Under the pieces are notes generated by a model. That model had not been told where the DNA came from and made no database searches. It was given only the letters and a program-made list of their open reading frames with translations. Shown here piece after piece: positions 1,633 to 10,241 of a stretch of DNA of 10,611 bases (within the stretch, counting starts at the first letter, position 1; each line of letters begins with the position of its first letter). Both the position numbers and the translations under genes were made by a program. This stretch comes from Sphingobacteriales bacterium (GTDB taxonomy: Bacteria > Bacteroidota > Bacteroidia > Chitinophagales > Chitinophagaceae): NCBI GenBank assembly GCA_004294195.1, contig REAQ01000287.1, positions 1 to 10,611 of the forward strand. Direction: 5' to 3'.

Positions 1633-3009
1633 ATGTATATACAACAGCTTTACACAGGATGCCTGAGCGAAGCGGCCTATTATATTGAAAGCAACGGAGA
1701 GGCTGCTATCATTGACCCCATACGGGACATCGATGAATATATGAACCTCCTTTCCAGCCGCGGCGCTACCCTGAAATATATTTTTGAGACCCATTTCCAT
1801 GCTGACTTTGTCAGTGGTCACCTGGAGCTTTCAAAGGCCACCGGAGCACCCATCGTGTTTGGTCCGGAAACGGAAACCAGCTACCCGGTAACTATTGCCC
1901 GTGACGGACAGGTATTTCCAATTGGCGCCTGCACCCTGAAAGTTCTCCATACGCCAGGGCATACCCTGGAATCCTGCAGCTACCTGCTGCAGAAAGAAAA
2001 TGGCGAGCCGCATGCTGTATTTACAGGTGATACCTTATTTGTGGGCGATGTGGGCCGTCCTGACCTGAGTTCTGGCAACCTAAGTTCCGATGAACTGGCC
2101 GCATTACTCTATCAATCCCTGGAAGAAAAGATCAAAACACTTCCAGACGATGTGATTGTTTACCCCGCCCATGGCCCCGGAAGCGCCTGCGGGAAAAACA
2201 TCGGCCCCAAAACGGAAAGCACCATTGGGGAAGAAAAAGCCGAAAACTATGCCTTGAAGGCAGAAAATAAAGAAGCATTCATCAAGGCAGTCACAGAAGG
2301 ACTATTGGCACCTCCGGACTATTTCATGCTCAATGCAAAGATCAACAAGGAAGGCTATGAGCAATTGCATGCCATCCGCGAGAAAGGCCTTACCCCCATT
2401 ACCGCCGAAGCATTGCATACATGGATACAAAACGAGCGTAAGCTCGTTATGCTGGATACCAGGCCGGCAAACCAGTTTGAAGAAGGGTTTGTTCCTGGCG
2501 CTATTTTCATAGGCCTGGAAGGACGGTTTGCAGAATGGGCAGGCTCTCTGCTGCCTTATGATACCGATATGATCCTCATCACTGAGCCCGGAAAAGAAGA
2601 AGAGGCTGTAATACGGTTGGCCCGGGTCGGTTTTTCCCGAATGATCGGCTGCTTGCAGGGTGGATATGACGCGTGGGTAAAAGCAGGATACGAAAAAGAC
2701 CTGCTGATCACCATTGAGCCCGATGAACTAATGATGGATCTGCCATTTGATGAGCACTTGTTGGTATTGGACGTACGGAAAGCGGCCGAGTACGACGGCG
2801 GTCATCTTGAGGAAGCAGAAAACCTTCCCCTTGACCTCATGAAAGATCCCGGAACAATGGCGATGATTGAGGATACGGATAACGTTTATGTTTATTGTGC
2901 CGGCGGCTACCGCAGCATGATCGCCTGCTCTTTACTGAAAAAAGAAGGCATTCATAATATTAGAAACATTGCGGGGGGATATAAGGCAATTAGTCAATTA
3001 GAAAATTAG
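1633..3009 (+). CDS. MBL-fold persulfide dioxygenase fused to two rhodanese domains
   Basis: A 458-residue protein with three domains. Residues 1 to ~250 are a metallo-beta-lactamase fold of the ETHE1/BLH persulfide dioxygenase type: THFHADFVSGH (H54, H56, D58), TPGHT (H110), FTGDTLFVGDVGRPDL (D133) and YPAHGPGSACG (H180). The family uses one iron to oxidise glutathione-type persulfide to sulfite. Residues ~262-352 are a rhodanese domain whose active-site loop reads ITEPGKEEE, with no cysteine, so it is probably non-catalytic. Residues ~362-458 are a second rhodanese domain with the catalytic loop C422-AGGYR, suited to sulfur transfer. The ATG at 1633 is chosen because it follows the promoter box and opens the conserved YIQQLYTGCLSEAAYYIE strand; an earlier in-frame GTG at 1573 lies before the terminator stem. 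The last codons and the stop are made of the octamer repeat that follows, so the C-terminus may be slightly shortened. Confidence 0.9.
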   Translation: MYIQQLYTGCLSEAAYYIESNGEAAIIDPIRDIDEYMNLLSSRGATLKYIFETHFHADFVSGHLELSKATGAPIVFGPETETSYPVTIARDGQVFPIGACTLKVLHTPGHTLESCSYLLQKENGEPHAVFTGDTLFVGDVGRPDLSSGNLSSDELAALLYQSLEEKIKTLPDDVIVYPAHGPGSACGKNIGPKTESTIGEEKAENYALKAENKEAFIKAVTEGLLAPPDYFMLNAKINKEGYEQLHAIREKGLTPITAEALHTWIQNERKLVMLDTRPANQFEEGFVPGAIFIGLEGRFAEWAGSLLPYDTDMILITEPGKEEEAVIRLARVGFSRMIGCLQGGYDAWVKAGYEKDLLITIEPDELMMDLPFDEHLLVLDVRKAAEYDGGHLEEAENLPLDLMKDPGTMAMIEDTDNVYVYCAGGYRSMIACSLLKKEGIHNIRNIAGGYKAISQLEN

Positions 3010-3154
3010 ACAATGCGGAAATGCGGCAATGATGGAAGTGCGGCCGTGCGTTGCCGGCCTGCGCAGAAACACTCGGAGTGACCGCGGGCGCGCCGCTACG
3101 CAAGGCGCGCCTTCCTTCATTGCCACACTGCCGCATTGCCACATTGCCACATTT
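2987..3154. repeat. Compound octamer/hairpin intergenic repeat, copy 1
   Basis: The left arm is six consecutive phased octamers: CAATTAGT (2987), CAATTAGA (2995), AAATTAGA (3003), CAATGCGG (3011), AAATGCGG (3019) and CAATGATG (3027). The right arm is CTTCATTG (3115), CCACACTG (3123), CCGCATTG (3131), CCACATTG (3139) and CCACATTT (3147), i.e. the same unit on the other strand. Bases 3013-3031 and 3118-3136 are inverted with 16 of 19 matches. The core contains TTGCCGGCCTG, CGGAGTGAC and two GGCGCGCC palindromes (3087-3094 and 3104-3111) separated by 9 bases, able to form an 8-bp hairpin. The element lies between convergent genes: its left end includes the stop of the dioxygenase gene and its right end touches the stop of the acyltransferase gene. 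A second copy lies at 7610-7785 in the same orientation. Short reading frames inside it are artefacts of the repeat. Confidence 0.85.
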
Positions 3155-4004
3155 ACTTCGCGTATTTCCACCGCCGATGTGTCCACAAGTAGTTAGCGGG
3201 ATGCTCACGGATGCAGGTCTCACAATAATCCCTGAACAAACGGGTGATTTCTCCATCGGGATAAGACCTCGGATCATCTGTGATGAACTCATATTTGAAT
3301 GAATACTTGCCCCTGCTTACCGGGAAAAAATATCCAAAAACAATAGCCGTATCTTGCAACTTTGCGCCCGTTTCAGGCCCCTTGATGAAAGGCACCTCCT
3401 TACTGAAAAACGGAAACCAATAGCCTACTTCTTTTCTGGGCGGGTTTTGGTCAGCTACAAGCGCAAGCATATATAACTTATCCTTCCAGTGAACAAACTC
3501 TTTTTTAAACTCAGTTGCAGGGATTAGGATAGTGCCATATCTGGCCCTGATTTTCCTGAACATTCGTTCGAAAATCGGGCTACTCAACGGCCCATATACG
3601 CCCAGAAAAGGATAAGTAAACTGTAAAGCCAGATTGAGGTTTATAATCTCCCAGTTGAAATTGTGCAGCGCCATCACCTGCACACTTTTGCCTCGCGCCA
3701 TGATATCATTCAGGGGTCTAAAATCACCCACAAATTTCTTCATGACCCCTTTCTTACCCAATGAAATCAGTTTGATGCTTTCAACCAACGTATCGCAAAA
3801 CAAAAGGTAAAAAGCTTTTGCGATCTTTATTCTTTCTTCATTGGTTTTTTCCGGGAACGCGATGGCAAGATTGTTCATCACTACATCTTTCCGATACTTG
3901 AAAACATTCCAGACCAAAAACCGCAAAAATTCAGATAGCCGATACATCACAAACCAGGGCAGCAATGAAATCAGGTATAATGGTATATAAACAAGGTAGT
4001 ACAT
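3153..4004 (-). CDS. LpxL/HtrB-like lysophospholipid (lipid A) acyltransferase
   Basis: A 283-residue protein of the LpxL/LpxM acyltransferase family, close to the usual ~300. A hydrophobic N-terminal segment (LVYIPLYLISLLPWFVMY) anchors it at the inner membrane. Family motifs are a stretch like the conserved NLAIAFPEKTNEER region (residues 45-58), the catalytic HX4E motif HNFNWE (H114, E119), ADQNPP in the middle, and the C-terminal YLWTHRRWK. In E. coli such enzymes transfer an acyl chain from acyl-ACP to lipid A; in Bacteroidota members of this family may act on lipid A or on other lysolipids, so the substrate is not fixed here. The ATG lies 6 bases after the nadB stop, so it is the last gene of the ispG-nadB operon. 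Its stop codon overlaps the outermost octamer of repeat copy 1. Confidence 0.85.
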   Translation of the reverse strand: MYYLVYIPLYLISLLPWFVMYRLSEFLRFLVWNVFKYRKDVVMNNLAIAFPEKTNEERIKIAKAFYLLFCDTLVESIKLISLGKKGVMKKFVGDFRPLNDIMARGKSVQVMALHNFNWEIINLNLALQFTYPFLGVYGPLSSPIFERMFRKIRARYGTILIPATEFKKEFVHWKDKLYMLALVADQNPPRKEVGYWFPFFSKEVPFIKGPETGAKLQDTAIVFGYFFPVSRGKYSFKYEFITDDPRSYPDGEITRLFRDYCETCIREHPANYLWTHRRWKYAK

Positions 4005-5620: not shown

Positions 5621-7603
5621 TTATGGTTCGATCCAGGCGCCACTGTCTTTCAGCAGCAGGATCAATTCTTCAACCGCAACATCACTGTCAACACTTCGCT
5701 TAACAACCTCTTTCCCTTTGTAAAGGGTGATCTTACCTGGGCCACTGCCCACGTATCCAAAATCAGCATCGGCCATTTCACCCGGACCATTCACAATACA
5801 TCCCATAATCGCGATCTTCACGCCTTTGAGGTGATGGGTGACGTTGCGGATCTTGGCCGTGGTTTCCTGGAGATCAAACAAGGTTCTGCCACAACTGGGA
5901 CAGGAAATGTATTCTGTCTTTGAGATACGGGTCCTTGTTGCCTGCAGAATAGAGAATGCCGTATTGTTGAGAAACTGGTAGTTGTCTTTTACTTCCAGGT
6001 AGGTTCTTCCACTGACTTTTATGTTCTCGAGTTTCTCTTCATTGTTCCATAACCACAATCCATCGCCCATTCCATCCAGCATCAACGCACCAGCTTCTGT
6101 TGAAAAATGAATCAGTTGCTGATCAATGTTGCCCTGCTGGGTTTCAACTGAAATGATCACCGGACGTTGTACACCCTGTGCCATCATTTCTATCATAAAC
6201 CTGCGGACATGCATCATGGAAGGTGTTGCACTGGTTTTAAGGCAGCACACTACGGACCCGTCTTTCAGCATCAGTTCAATCATGGCCGTCCACGATGTAA
6301 TGTCTGCAACATCCATCATCACAAAGTTCATCTGTGCAGACCTTGGACCTGTGCTATTATAATAATCAGCAAATGAAAAAACCGGATAATACTTATCCTT
6401 ATCTGGCGCATCTATCCATGTCTTTTGATCAACCAATACTTTCAGGGTACCCGGCAAAGCAAATTCCAGAATGTTACGTCCTGTATATACATAGTCTGCT
6501 GCAGCATCTGCAATGTTCCACTTATCCGTCACAGCATCATAACGGTAACCAATAGACGAAAAATCCGCCGGCTTAAGATCGGGCCTCTCCTTCATATCAG
6601 CCACTACTACCGGAACATGCCCCTCGCCAATATTGGAAATAGGACGGGTGGTCCTTCTTCTGTATTGATAGGGATCATAAGGCATTTTCTCGATGGCAGG
6701 AATTGGGGACGATGGGGTTCTTGTATTGTATCGGCTCACAATGTCTTTGCATACCGGAATCTCAAACTCAGGATCCTCAGTGAGGGAAACTCGGATGGTA
6801 TCACCGATGCCATCTTCCAGCAATGTTCCGATACCGATGGCTGATTTGATCCTGCCATCTTCTCCATCACCCGCCTCCGTAACACCGAGGTGCAACGGGT
6901 AACAGGCATTGAACTCCTCTTTCATGATCTTCACCAACAGTCGATAGGCCTGTACCATCACCAGTGGGTTGCTGGATTTCATGCTGAGCACGATGTTGTG
7001 GTAGCTTTCACCACGGGCGATCCTTAAAAACTCCATGGCTGACTCAACCATGCCCATCGGCGTATCGCCATAACGGCTCATGATGCGATCACTGAGCGAT
7101 CCATGGTTGGTGCCGATGCGCATCGCCGTGCCGTACTCTTTACAGATCTTCACCAGGGGCGTGAACCGCTCTCGTATCCGATCGATCTCCTCTACATAAT
7201 CGGCATCGGTATATTCAATGAATTCAAATTTCTTCTTGTCTACGTAGTTTCCCGGGTTCACGCGAACCTTTTCAACAATGCGTGCAGCAATTTCTGCAGC
7301 GTTGGGCGTAAAATGAATATCCGCAACCAGTGGTGTATGATATCCCCTTTTACGCAACTCGTCTTTAATGACCTGGAGGTTCTCTGCCTCCTTTTTTGAA
7401 GGAGCGGTGATGCGGACCAGTTCTGCGCCTGCTTCAATGCAACGGATCGACTGCTCCACGGTTGCCAGGGTATCCATCGTATCCGTAGTGGTCATGGTCT
7501 GCACGCGGATGGGATGACCATTGCCCAATAGGAGGTCACCGATCTTAACTTCTAGGGTCTGCAGTCTTTGGTAGGAAACAAGGGAAGAGGCGTATGATAA
7601 CAT
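5621..7603 (-). CDS. ispG: (E)-4-hydroxy-3-methylbut-2-enyl-diphosphate synthase IspG, long form
   Basis: A 660-residue IspG (GcpE), an iron-sulfur enzyme of the MEP isoprenoid pathway that reductively converts methylerythritol cyclodiphosphate to HMBPP. Residues ~15-290 form the TIM barrel, with VQTMTTTDT, LVADIHFTP, VRVNPGNY and MRIGTNHGSL, ending near GIGDTIRVSLTEDPEFE. Residues ~300-550 are the large inserted domain found in plant and Bacteroidota enzymes and absent from the ~370-residue E. coli type. The C-terminal domain carries the [4Fe-4S] ligands CPSC (C568, C571) and GCIVNGPGE (C602, E609), followed by ADADFGYVGSGPGKI. The ATG at 7603 precedes the conserved barrel by a normal distance. 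Its whole upstream region back to the previous gene is repeat copy 2, so its promoter lies in the repeat or it depends on readthrough. It is followed by nadB after 11 bases. Confidence 0.97.
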   Translation of the reverse strand: MLSYASSLVSYQRLQTLEVKIGDLLLGNGHPIRVQTMTTTDTMDTLATVEQSIRCIEAGAELVRITAPSKKEAENLQVIKDELRKRGYHTPLVADIHFTPNAAEIAARIVEKVRVNPGNYVDKKKFEFIEYTDADYVEEIDRIRERFTPLVKICKEYGTAMRIGTNHGSLSDRIMSRYGDTPMGMVESAMEFLRIARGESYHNIVLSMKSSNPLVMVQAYRLLVKIMKEEFNACYPLHLGVTEAGDGEDGRIKSAIGIGTLLEDGIGDTIRVSLTEDPEFEIPVCKDIVSRYNTRTPSSPIPAIEKMPYDPYQYRRRTTRPISNIGEGHVPVVVADMKERPDLKPADFSSIGYRYDAVTDKWNIADAAADYVYTGRNILEFALPGTLKVLVDQKTWIDAPDKDKYYPVFSFADYYNSTGPRSAQMNFVMMDVADITSWTAMIELMLKDGSVVCCLKTSATPSMMHVRRFMIEMMAQGVQRPVIISVETQQGNIDQQLIHFSTEAGALMLDGMGDGLWLWNNEEKLENIKVSGRTYLEVKDNYQFLNNTAFSILQATRTRISKTEYISCPSCGRTLFDLQETTAKIRNVTHHLKGVKIAIMGCIVNGPGEMADADFGYVGSGPGKITLYKGKEVVKRSVDSDVAVEELILLLKDSGAWIEP

Positions 7604-7609
7604 GGTGTA

Positions 7610-7785
7610 AAATTAGATAATTAGACGATGCGGTAATGCGGCAATGACGCTTCGCGAGGCATTTGGCATTGGGCACTGGGCATTGCCGGCCTGTACGTCA
7701 ACGCCGGAGTGACTGCCGGCGCGCCGCAACGCAGGGCGCGCCTTCCAACATTGCCGCATTACCGCATTACCACATTGCCACATTG
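7610..7785. repeat. Compound octamer/hairpin intergenic repeat, copy 2
   Basis: Same architecture and orientation as the copy at 2987-3154. The left arm has phased octamers AAATTAGA (7610), TAATTAGA (7618), CGATGCGG (7626), TAATGCGG (7634) and CAATGACG (7642). The right arm has CCGCATTA (7754), CCGCATTA (7762), CCACATTG (7770) and CCACATTG (7778). Bases 7628-7646 and 7749-7767 are a perfect 19-bp inverted repeat. The core again has TTGCCGGCCTG, CGGAGTGAC and two GGCGCGCC palindromes (7718-7725 and 7735-7742) with a 9-base spacer. Unlike copy 1 it carries four tandem heptamers at 7658-7685. It fills the gap between the batC-like stop (7788) and the ispG start (7603), i.e. between genes read in the same direction. 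No T-run follows the hairpin on either strand, so it is not a classical intrinsic terminator. Confidence 0.85.
7658..7685 (+). repeat. Tandem heptamer array inside repeat copy 2
   Basis: Four consecutive 7-base units, GGCATTT, GGCATTG, GGCACTG and GGCATTG, run directly into the conserved GCCGGCCTG core. Repeat copy 1 has no equivalent at this place, so this is an optional module with a period different from the 8-base arms. Confidence 0.8.
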
Positions 7786-7787
7786 CT

Positions 7788-8387
7788 CTACCAGTCTTTC
7801 TCTGGTTGACCAGGTGCTGGCACTTTTGATTTCTGCATGCGTTGCTGAAGTTGTTTCTCCTGTTCCTGCAACGCATTCAACATCTGCTGTACCTGCTGTT
7901 TGTTCATTTTGGGTTGCTTCTTGGGCTGCTGGCTATTGTCCTGCTTTTGCTGCTCCTGCTTTTTCTGCTTTTCATTGAGCGCACGTTGCAGATTCTGGCG
8001 GGCGAGGGTATCAGCAGGATTAAGCCGAAGCGCTGATTTGTACGCTCCAATACTTTCATCCAGCTTTTTTTGCTTGGTATACACTACGCCTTTATTATAC
8101 AAGGCATCGGCCTTTGCCGGATTGCTCTTGCCACTATTCGCTGAAGCTTCAAACTGCTCGATGGCTTCTTCCTGTTTATTCTCTTTAAGGAGTGTATTGC
8201 CATAATTGAATGCGGCTACAGGATTGCCAGGTGTTTTCTGCAAGGCGCGCTGGTAAAAGCTTCCGGCCTTACCATATTCTTGTTTTCGGTATGCTTCATT
8301 ACCCTTGCTGATATCTTCATTGGCTTGCTGTGCATGCAAACAAAACGGGACCAGCCCCAAAAAACATATCAATGCTTTTCTTTTCAT
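7788..8387 (-). CDS. batC: BatC-like tetratricopeptide repeat protein
   Basis: A 199-residue exported protein. Residues 1-19 form a signal peptide ending in LHA before QQ. Three TPR units follow at about 22-55, 56-90 and 93-126; helix pairs such as GNEAYRKQEYGKAGSFYQRAL and GVVYTKQKKLDESIGAYKSALRLNP show the pattern. From ~137 the chain is rich in Gln and Lys and likely coiled coil or disordered, ending in PEKDW. This layout matches BatC of the Bacteroides aerotolerance (Bat) operon, where TPR proteins act with VWA proteins at the cell envelope; the biochemical role is not established. The start ATG overlaps the VWA gene stop by 4 bases (ATGA), so translation is coupled. No BatD or BatE gene follows: repeat copy 2 and ispG come next. 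Confidence 0.75.
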   Translation of the reverse strand: MKRKALICFLGLVPFCLHAQQANEDISKGNEAYRKQEYGKAGSFYQRALQKTPGNPVAAFNYGNTLLKENKQEEAIEQFEASANSGKSNPAKADALYNKGVVYTKQKKLDESIGAYKSALRLNPADTLARQNLQRALNEKQKKQEQQKQDNSQQPKKQPKMNKQQVQQMLNALQEQEKQLQQRMQKSKVPAPGQPEKDW

Positions 8388-9382
8388 ACAGCAAGGGATT
8401 TTCGTTCAGGGTAAAGCAATTCAAGGATCAATATCAGGATTGCAGCTCCCAAAAACCAGGGGAAAAAACTGCGGTAGTTTAACAGGCTATTGTCATTGAT
8501 CGTTTTCTTTTCCATACCATCGATTTCCTTAAGAACTCTGGACACCGCAGCGTCAGCATCGGCCAGCAATTGAAAAGACCCGTTGCCGGTGACTGCGAGA
8601 TCCATCAGCTCTTTCTCATTCACCCTTGTGATCACGGGCGTTCCATCAGCATTCTTCTTCACTTCTTTGGTATCCGGATCAATGATCTGCGCGCCAGAAC
8701 TTGTACCAACACCAATGGTATGCAAGAGCACACCGTCCTCGGCCATCGTCTTTGCGATCTCAACCGCTTTCTCATCATGATCTTCCCCATCCGAAATAAG
8801 GATCACCGCCTTGAATTTTTTCTGCTCTTTATCAAACGCGTTGTTACAGATCTGTAGTGCCTCCCCGATCACGGTGCCCTGCGTGGGAACCGAAGCCGTG
8901 GACGCCGCATTCACATACATTTTAGCCGCGCTGTGGTCACTGGTCAGCGGCATCTGCAGATAGGCTCTGCCGGCAAACACTACCAACCCGATCTTATCGT
9001 TATCCAATTCATCAATCAACTTATTGACCAGTAGCTTTGCCCTTTGCAGTCGGTTGGGCTGAATGTCTTCCGCCAGCATTGACTTACTGACATCAAGCGC
9101 AATCATTACATCCACCCCCTGGCGGTTGATCTGGGCAATCTGGTCTGCGCGTTGAAGGTTTGCTAATCCGATGGCACCCAGCACAAATGCGATCACCACC
9201 ATGATAAATTTCCAACGAAAACGGGCCGGGGAATAGTTGCTGATCAGCTGTTTCACTAGCACGGGATCTCCGATCCTGGATACTATTCTCTTCTTCCATC
9301 GGATGACTGCCCAATAAAGCAAAACAAAGACAGGTATGAGTACCAGCACCAACAAAAGAATAGTATGCTCAAAACGAAACAT
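8384..9382 (-). CDS. batB: BatB-like von Willebrand factor A domain membrane protein
   Basis: A 332-residue protein with two N-terminal membrane helices (about residues 7-27 and 58-77), a VWA domain at about 90-285 and a C-terminal membrane helix at about 305-323 (FFPWFLGAAILILILELLYP). The metal ion-dependent adhesion site is intact: DVSKS (D97, S99, S101), a Thr in the TQGT segment near 170, and SDGED (D198). This arrangement is that of BatA/BatB; the position directly before a BatC-like gene favours BatB. Such proteins are thought to form envelope complexes linked to MoxR-type ATPases and stress tolerance. The ATG at 9382 overlaps the preceding beta-lactamase stop by one base (TGATG); an adjacent in-frame GTG at 9385 would add only one residue. 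A 4-base overlap leads into the TPR gene. Confidence 0.8.
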   Translation of the reverse strand: MFRFEHTILLLVLVLIPVFVLLYWAVIRWKKRIVSRIGDPVLVKQLISNYSPARFRWKFIMVVIAFVLGAIGLANLQRADQIAQINRQGVDVMIALDVSKSMLAEDIQPNRLQRAKLLVNKLIDELDNDKIGLVVFAGRAYLQMPLTSDHSAAKMYVNAASTASVPTQGTVIGEALQICNNAFDKEQKKFKAVILISDGEDHDEKAVEIAKTMAEDGVLLHTIGVGTSSGAQIIDPDTKEVKKNADGTPVITRVNEKELMDLAVTGNGSFQLLADADAAVSRVLKEIDGMEKKTINDNSLLNYRSFFPWFLGAAILILILELLYPERKSLAV

Positions 9383-10227
9383 CACATTTTCCCTTTAAAA
9401 AATCCCAGATCAGTCAAAATATTGTTCAGGATCTTCTTTCTGACTTCGGCCATATTAATAGAATGATCCGTTGATTCCAGGTTCAGGGCGAAGAAATACA
9501 CATGCCGATTCTCCTCGATCCAACCCACAACCCAGCCAAGTTCATTACCTTTCTCCGTTTTGCCCCATCCTGTTTTGTAAGCAAGTATATATTTATCATT
9601 CCGCTCCCGAATCATCATGTTACGAACAATTTCCTGTTCGCGATTTTGAAAAGGCAATTGCCTGAAATATAAGCGTTTGACGAAGCCCAATTGTTCATCA
9701 GCGGTAACTTTCAAGGTGTTATCGAGCCAAAAAGTGTCAATATTGTTAGTAATACGGAAAGTATCATACCTACGTCCATATCCTATACTGTCTAACAACA
9801 TTTGCATGGTATCTTTTCCAATACGCCTTGCCATTTCACGGTAAAAAGGCACATTACTTACTTCAAATGCCTCGCGCATATCCATATTCTTATTCCATTG
9901 GTGCATCGTATCCCCACCTGATGAAATTCGCACCACCTTATCCCATGGAACAACTACGGTATCACTAAAAATGACACCGGTGCCTAAGGCTGCAAGCGAA
10001 TTAAAGATTTTAAAAGTAGATGCAGGTAAATAAGCACTATCGCGAAAACGGGTAAGGTTATAAACCGTAAATTGACCTTGCGCGTTATCAAAAATGCCAA
10101 ATGTGCCTTGTACTCCGGCTTCATCAAAGTATTTTTTCAGTGAATCGTCCTGGGTAACATTATTGGTATTACAGGCAGCAAGAAACAAAACCACTCCCGC
10201 AAGACTTCTTAAAATCAAATGCTTCAT
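9382..10227 (-). CDS. Class D (OXA-type) beta-lactamase, lipoprotein form
   Basis: A 281-residue protein with the class D serine beta-lactamase motifs in order: PASTFKIFNSL (S70-T-F-K73, nucleophile and carboxylatable Lys), SNVPFYRE (S124-x-V126), YGR at 150-152 where many OXA enzymes have YGN, FWL near 166, LKVTADEQLGFVKRLY (the OXA LKISxxEQ region), KTGWG (K218-T-G220) and GWVVGWIE. The N-terminus is a lipoprotein signal with lipobox LAAC (Cys19), so the enzyme is probably anchored in the envelope facing the periplasm. Class D enzymes hydrolyse penicillins and oxacillin-like substrates; the spectrum here cannot be read from sequence, and a related penicillin-binding role is possible. The ATG at 10227 is preferred to an in-frame TTG at 10236. 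It overlaps the VWA gene start, an unexpected neighbour. The gene looks more AT-rich than ispG or the dioxygenase gene. Confidence 0.88.
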   Translation of the reverse strand: MKHLILRSLAGVVLFLAACNTNNVTQDDSLKKYFDEAGVQGTFGIFDNAQGQFTVYNLTRFRDSAYLPASTFKIFNSLAALGTGVIFSDTVVVPWDKVVRISSGGDTMHQWNKNMDMREAFEVSNVPFYREMARRIGKDTMQMLLDSIGYGRRYDTFRITNNIDTFWLDNTLKVTADEQLGFVKRLYFRQLPFQNREQEIVRNMMIRERNDKYILAYKTGWGKTEKGNELGWVVGWIEENRHVYFFALNLESTDHSINMAEVRKKILNNILTDLGFFKGKM

Positions 10228-10233
10228 AGGTTG

Positions 10234-10241
10234 CAAAATTG
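10234..10241 (-). promoter_or_regulatory. Candidate -7 promoter box for the beta-lactamase cluster
   Basis: On the minus strand CAATTTTG lies six bases before the ATG at 10227 and matches TAnnTTTG at seven of eight positions. As with the dioxygenase gene, the message would be nearly leaderless. A matching -33 element is not obvious. Confidence 0.4.

Follow-up and report, generated by a model that had tools for sequence, protein, structure and literature searches.

How did the gap between two genes on contig REAQ01000287.1 come to be filled by an inverted repeat built in steps of eight bases, and what kind of element is it? The stretch analyzed here, which we call the window, comprises 10,611 nt of this contig and contains two copies. 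The left arm of copy 1, a 36-nt sequence on the plus strand (2996–3031), reads AATTAGAA (2996–3003), AATTAGAC (3004–3011), AATGCGGA (3012–3019), AATGCGGC (3020–3027) and AATG (3028–3031), and a fifth, outer octamer on the same strand, AATTAGTC (2988–2995), lies within the 3′ end of the neighboring gene. Next to the arm stands an imperfect GC-rich hairpin with the loop TGCGTTGC (module a, 3032–3064, plus strand), and further in lies a hairpin that reads GGAAGGCGCGCC... on the minus strand (module c, 3087–3117), in which GGCGCGCC (3087–3094), a 9-nt loop and a second GGCGCGCC (3104–3111) are followed by TTCC. The right arm (3118–3153, minus strand) reads AATGTGGC AATGTGGC AATGCGGC AGTGTGGC AATG on that strand and is the inverted octamer that an earlier note on this DNA had described. 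That note also had the element filling the gap between convergent genes. Copy 1 does lie between such genes and extends somewhat beyond the gap: the last codons and stop of the gene for a metallo-beta-lactamase-fold/rhodanese protein (1633–3009, plus strand) are themselves octamers, the stop (3007–3009) falling inside the third AATTAG unit, and the other end reaches the stop codon (3153–3155) of the gene for a lipid A acyltransferase-family protein (3153–4004, minus strand).

Copy 2 (7611–7784) lies between two same-strand genes, so the convergent setting holds for copy 1 only: the start codon of the IspG/GcpE gene (5621–7603, minus strand) is 7 nt from it, and the stop codon of a TPR protein gene (7788–8387, minus strand) is 3 nt from it. 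Its left arm reads AATTAGAT AATTAGAC GATGCGGT AATGCGGC AATG (7611–7646, plus strand) and its right arm, read on the minus strand, AATGTGGC AATGTGGT AATGCGGT AATGCGGC AATG (7749–7784, minus strand). The second copy had been said to keep phase, order and core spacing; phase and the GGCGCGCC hairpin are indeed kept (module c, 7718–7748, minus strand, with the palindromes at 7718–7725 and 7735–7742), but the left half of the core is a different module, b (GACGCTTCGCGAGGCA...; 7647–7687, plus strand), in place of module a. Folded as single-stranded DNA, both window copies are far more stable than shuffles (z −4.8 each). The window gave no match to Rfam covariance models up to E = 1, and a Pfam search of nine window proteins returned ordinary genes and no mover, in agreement with the earlier note. 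Elsewhere in the window, positions 9382–10236 on the minus strand encode a penicillin-binding transpeptidase domain (PF00905), by appearance a class D beta-lactamase or a relative.

The element is a real multi-copy intergenic family, as had been proposed. In the genome from which the window comes (G000, a draft of 1.96 Mb in 398 contigs, 75% complete, with crude gene calls) GGCGCGCC-N9-GGCGCGCC occurs at 16 places, against 0 for a reversed control, and copy 1 used as a query returned 74 matches, often two per copy (one per strand), with about 24 near-full copies; a family of only two copies is thereby excluded. An array survey covered 46 stretches of this genome (45 fetched stretches and the window, 242 kb), in which an octamer score of at least 31 identified 84 arrays versus 0 in reversed sequence. 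Because a looser score of 18 gave 145 arrays versus 81 in the reversed control, weaker arrays were left out, with the exception of one at 28.5 (L132), a score that three control arrays also reach or approach (≥28). In the 46 stretches, 29 pairs of arms face each other in inverted orientation and another 27 arms stand unpaired, among them one cut by a contig end (C10) and two with a weak partner (C61:3559 and C380).

Each arm is a 36-nt end of four octamers followed by AATG, with the consensus AATGTGGC AATTTGGC AATGCGGT AATGCGGC AATG. Counted from the inner AAT, AAT..G is present at the fourth unit in 75 of 85 arms and at the fifth in 9 of 85. The AAT..G letters are 95% conserved versus 70–72% (about 71%) for the other octamer letters, in a motif that is partly ascertained because the search patterns favor AAT..G units by design; the fading past unit 4 and the gene-adjacent position were not imposed by the pattern. 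The commonest units are AATGTG (28) or AATTAG (19) in the outermost position, AATTTG in the second, and AATGCG in the third and fourth. The octamer phase is held through the change of unit type that had been noticed in the left arm of copy 1, and the change itself is better described as position-dependent, the arm being an end of fixed length (36 nt) with degenerate outer units. Cyanobacterial STRRs and TAACTGA repeats are short tandem arrays of near-identical units in variable number, whereas here AAT..G alone is kept and most arms have four units; the 36-nt arms do form terminal inverted repeats of the MITE type. Since letters are equally conserved in paired and unpaired arms, the unpaired arms are not decayed remnants. 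These arms without a core go beyond the earlier account, as does the wide occurrence in the phylum of inverted arms in octamer phase. The same genome also carries a different octamer array, a repeated AACTCAGC (L100, C76:3886–3973).

Between the arms, three core modules recur. Module a consists of GGAAG and the imperfect hairpin; module b, GACGCTTCGCGAGGC..., contains GACG, the reverse of CGTC (by eye); and module c has an 8-bp stem that is perfect in 15 of 22 c arms, its changes amounting to four GGCGCGCT variants, some stems that are broken, and one stem (C167) that is altered on both sides yet still pairs perfectly. The double GGCGCGCC core highlighted by the earlier note, with its two palindromes 9 nt apart, is one stem-loop among three interchangeable modules. 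The 29 pairs, which are inverted extragenic doublets forming hairpins as in GTAG-type repeats, comprise 19 a/c, 4 b/c, 3 a/b (counting C167, labeled b by the script, which begins with the c hairpin), 2 a/unclassified and 1 unclassified on both sides, and none of the 29 is homotypic. Unpaired arms are mostly without a hairpin (25 of 27 unclassified). We considered and rejected the idea that the arms are maintained by pairing with each other: the left and right arms within a copy resemble each other no more than arms taken from different copies do (per-unit shuffle p 0.06 to 0.51), and among the matches listed from named genomes (see below) units in mirrored positions agree as often as shifted ones (2.20 versus 2.19 of 4). 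Because left and right arms show no covariation, a conserved RNA stem is unlikely.

A search of 59 relatives found 0 copies of the full element and one weak arm match (up to 14 candidates scored per genome). The degenerate pattern AATNNGNN repeated four times matched 11 of 60 genomes in the relatives search, the window's own included, and the four-unit pattern was without a match in 32 of 36 same-genus relatives. Across the phylum, the octamer pattern was present in 54 of 395 Bacteroidota genomes; the reversed control was mostly 0, but in some genomes (e.g. G319 and G401) control matches equaled or exceeded the real ones, which leaves little weight to any single low count. Within one genus (g41), genomes with many arrays stand beside genomes that have none. 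A more stringent paired-arm pattern (25 fixed letters and 31 loop sizes, for which a hand estimate at even composition gives far less than one chance match) was found in at least 120 stretches of named genomes. Of 80 stretches with a listed title, 78 carry Bacteroidota names (Flavobacterium, Chryseobacterium, Niastella, Mucilaginibacter and Runella among others); the remaining two come from MAGs with the titles Saccharibacteria and Rickettsiales. In 246 arms of the matches listed, where two units per arm are fixed by the search pattern, the frequency of AAT is 0.66–0.67 at unit 3, 0.45 at unit 4 and 0.06–0.13 at unit 5. By number of units, four is the count in 106 arms, two in 62 and three in 59, and 19 arms exceed four. 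One genome, G184, has much longer octamer arrays, with several arms per spacer (L304, L305, L311). Viral contigs (viral_contigs) gave 0 matches to the paired-arm pattern and 0 to the c hairpin, and the core 26-mer gave 0 in genome_contigs, a set from which the window's own genome may be absent.

The elements lie at gene boundaries. Outer edges number 85 in the window's genome: a stop codon is the neighbor of 48 of them and a start codon of 20, and 17 have neither inside the limits applied. Of the 48 stop-facing edges, 30 fall between −2 and +3 nt of the stop; no start comes closer than 5 nt, and several other edges directly follow a terminator-like T-run (by eye). Stops keep a register with the octamers (TAA in phase 8 in 15 of 21, TGA in phase 5 in 6 of 10, TAG in phase 4 in 5 of 10), although this is trivial where the stop sits inside the array. 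Convergent gaps make up 18 of 52 classifiable element gaps versus 14 of 159 gaps without an element. Both orientations of the element are seen between co-directional genes, and arms occur within conserved operons, e.g. rplB-rpsS, rplF-rplR and ftsA-ftsZ (gene names by reading). The matches listed from named genomes behave similarly: all 124 elements fall outside called genes, 86 of the 129 edges on the stop side are within 3 nt of a stop or overlap it, where uniform insertion would place 2.6–8.6%, and 37 of 95 start-side edges are 5–9 nt before a start. In this same listed set, the spacer outside the element has a median of 13 nt in tandem gaps (n=84) and −2 nt in convergent gaps (n=26), against 89 and 122 nt for gaps without an element, whereas whole gaps including the element (97.5 nt tandem, 88 nt convergent) are not longer overall. 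Many edges, not all, touch stops or sit 5–8 nt from starts in G445, G184 and G015. We also tried and rejected the idea that the octamers are chosen to close all reading frames. All three frames were closed in 54% of the named arms among the matches listed, in 56% with free letters redrawn and in 41% with all letters shuffled, the corresponding values in the window's genome being 14%, 10% and 15%; there is thus no frame-closing effect beyond the fixed letters.

At orthologous junctions of same-genus genomes (30 loci for each ribosomal pair, with the window's genome among them), the L6 and L2 proteins terminate at practically the same residue, and in the window's genome the octamers begin at the native L6 and L2 stops. 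The L6-L18 gap is 108 nt there versus 40–117 nt in the others, and the L2-S19 gap 42 nt versus 21–46 nt; because 42 nt falls within that range, the L2-S19 array replaces spacer. Between acyltransferase and rhodanese, the gap filled by copy 1 measures 0–9 nt in four relatives, and in five others the genes overlap slightly. In G015 the gap is 87 nt and holds a different inverted repeat, also stepped by 8 nt (by eye). Between TPR and ispG the gap is 61–193 nt in four relatives, with heptamer arrays just past the stop in G015 and G034, and G033 has other octamers in its L2-S19 spacer (by eye). Further phased arrays visible by eye directly after stops in same-genus genomes (ribosomal spacers L200, L216, L178 and L179; the window's junctions in relatives, L324, L354 and L358) include a 9-nt TCACATTCA-like array, an inverted pair of GAGAGNNN octamers, and 7-nt arrays of AATTCGT, ACGTTTA/ACGTTCA, GCAGGTT and ACGAAGG. 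Ahead of the start of L18, the rplF-rplR spacer (L165–L194) has a short conserved hairpin-like CCTGGCAGNATCAGG at the majority of the 30 loci; it is retained downstream of the octamers in the window's genome and is a possible leader element.

No mover of the element was found. Directly outside the four-unit edges, target duplications of at least 3 nt were found in 0 of 28 cases, and of 2 nt in 1 of 28 versus a shuffled mean of 1.75. Gene-sized arm pairs (205 loci, 350–5000 nt) showed no excess of the +/− arrangement (6, versus 17 +/+, 31 −/+ and 5 −/−), and no transposase was found in nine tested ORFs enclosed by arm pairs. The suggestion that a RAYT gene might be flanked by the same arms found no support at the 31 Y1 loci examined (30 of the relatives' Y1 matches, not all, and the window's genome), none of which has an octamer array in its flanks. 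The single Y1 match in the window's genome is a truncated Y1_Tnp cut by a contig end (L046, C146:8010–8324), which starts directly past the stop of an aroG-like gene. In G045, a Y1 transposase gene (L142, 1958–2240) carries its own CCCC..GGGG repeats, a separate REP-like system.

The general design that had been suggested, REP/BIME- or MITE-like, is supported. As described in the literature (PMC3733652; PMC3116915), REP, BIME and REPIN repeats (GTAG and CGTC families) likewise form inverted doublets and singlets with GC-rich hairpins and a mosaic of modules, are intergenic and lie next to gene 3′ ends, where their termini can supply stop codons. They end in a GTAG or CGTC tag and a hairpin, whereas the ends here are 36-nt octamer-phased arms, the unpaired arms mostly have no hairpin, and no link to a RAYT was found. 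That the elements nonetheless belong to the genuine GTAG REP/REPIN repeats, with a RAYT (Y1 transposase) as their mover, is very improbable. Such a family would account for the hairpin-forming inverted doublets, the 3′-end location and stop-supplying termini, the AATGTAGG ahead of the hairpin in 21 of 49 module-bearing arms, the truncated Y1 gene and the Y1 match in all five genomes with at least five array matches in the relatives search. But GTAG is limited to those 21 of 49 arms, while the tag exceeds 90% in most REP families and has degenerate variants in some (PMC3733652); Y1 is present in 36 of 60 genomes, most of them without arrays; and array-bearing G045 has CCCC..GGGG hairpins, not octamers, beside its Y1 gene. 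On account of the GTAG frequency and the missing RAYT link we have not filed the elements as REPs. MITEs such as BrickBuilt of Porphyromonas gingivalis are also short, intergenic, Bacteroidota elements with inverted ends; BrickBuilt, however, has internal 23-nt tandem repeats and lies 49–591 nt from genes (PMC4596501), whereas here octamers form the ends and the arms reach the genes, with neither a target duplication nor a known parent transposon. The TAACTGA heptamer repeats found in Beggiatoaceae, Cyanobacteria and some Bacteroidetes are intergenic arrays with a period that is not a multiple of three, occurring at ribosomal genes too and sometimes overlapping stops (PMC4679880). There a single heptamer is repeated directly, a variable number of times, and in the main genome studied the arrays mostly stand shortly before starts, whereas the units here are degenerate, four per arm and usually in inverted pairs. 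Searches of an open-access library gave no description of octamer-phased inverted arms, and neither there nor in Rfam did an already named family emerge.

We lean, with somewhat less than even confidence, toward a dispersed, non-autonomous intergenic element that is REPIN/BIME-like and has a new kind of end. It resembles REPINs in that copies at unrelated loci share a core and have fixed arms, the core is specific to the species, target duplication is absent, and doublets occur along with singlets. The 36-nt arm, AAT..G every 8 nt four times and then AATG, would be the recognized unit, and the 8-base phase may be the step of a protein's contact with it; a factor reading the phase is suggested because the arm exists alone and keeps AAT..G every 8 nt without partner covariation. 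Two inverted arms enclose interchangeable GC-rich hairpin modules, arms occur unpaired as well, and copies might spread in trans by a putative enzyme or a replication-linked process that leaves no target duplication. They sit where neighbors stay intact, right after a stop or terminator and some nucleotides before a start, a placement that could reflect targeting or selection. Counting for dispersal are the many near-identical copies at unrelated loci, the heterotypic combination of modules a, b and c, the arm boundary after four units (also the commonest count among the named matches listed), the conservation of AAT..G, the clustering of edges at gene ends, the absence of the full copy from 59 relatives and the existence of orthologous junctions without the element. 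Simple insertion is disfavored because it should lengthen gaps, yet element gaps are not longer overall and the L2-S19 spacer is replaced. Against dispersal count the lack of any mover or gene-bearing copy among our findings and the other-unit arrays of near relatives at the same junctions, so that in-place turnover also fits; mobility, moreover, is judged from one draft genome, 75% complete.

The arms could instead be functional in cis, binding a protein as DNA or RNA at gene boundaries, with copies kept because they work, for example in 3′-end protection, intercistronic translation control or the separation of convergent transcripts. This is possible, if unlikely: arms that fill the spacer from the stop to 5–9 nt before the start, AAT..G retained in unpaired arms as well, the enrichment in convergent gaps and the presence within ribosomal and ftsA-ftsZ operons are all consistent with it, but the cores are species-specific, same-genus genomes are nearly devoid of the element, both orientations occur between co-directional genes, and the arms do not covary as a conserved RNA stem would. 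Decidedly unlikely, in our estimate, is an origin with no transposition at all, in which imperfect short tandem repeats, grown and rewritten by slippage and ectopic gene conversion, fill non-functional spacer up to functional boundaries. The 7-, 8- or 9-nt phased arrays of relatives, among them the G033 octamers, the gap lengths that are not raised and the variable, long arrays of G184 would suit such a process; it sits poorly with the four-unit limit of arms in the window's genome, four being also the mode among the named matches listed, and with fixed 170-nt cores bearing hairpin modules at many loci.

Beyond the preferred dispersed element lies a broader proposal, conceivable but doubtful: that Bacteroidota harbor a phylum-wide, apparently undescribed class of elements in which a protein reads the ends at 8-nt intervals (four AAT..G units and a closing AATG) and a boundary-sensing process, coupled for instance to translation or transcription termination, lays copies between a stop and a few nucleotides before the next start, each lineage renewing unit sequence and core but preserving phase and unit number. 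The element would provide Bacteroidota with a counterpart of the proteobacterial REP/BIME repeats, and the sharply defined end would offer a handle for finding the protein that binds or copies the repeat. Because arrays sit within ribosomal and ftsA-ftsZ operons of the window's genome and occupy entire spacers in genera such as Flavobacterium and Chryseobacterium, they bear on the evolution of gene boundaries, on annotation and possibly on expression.
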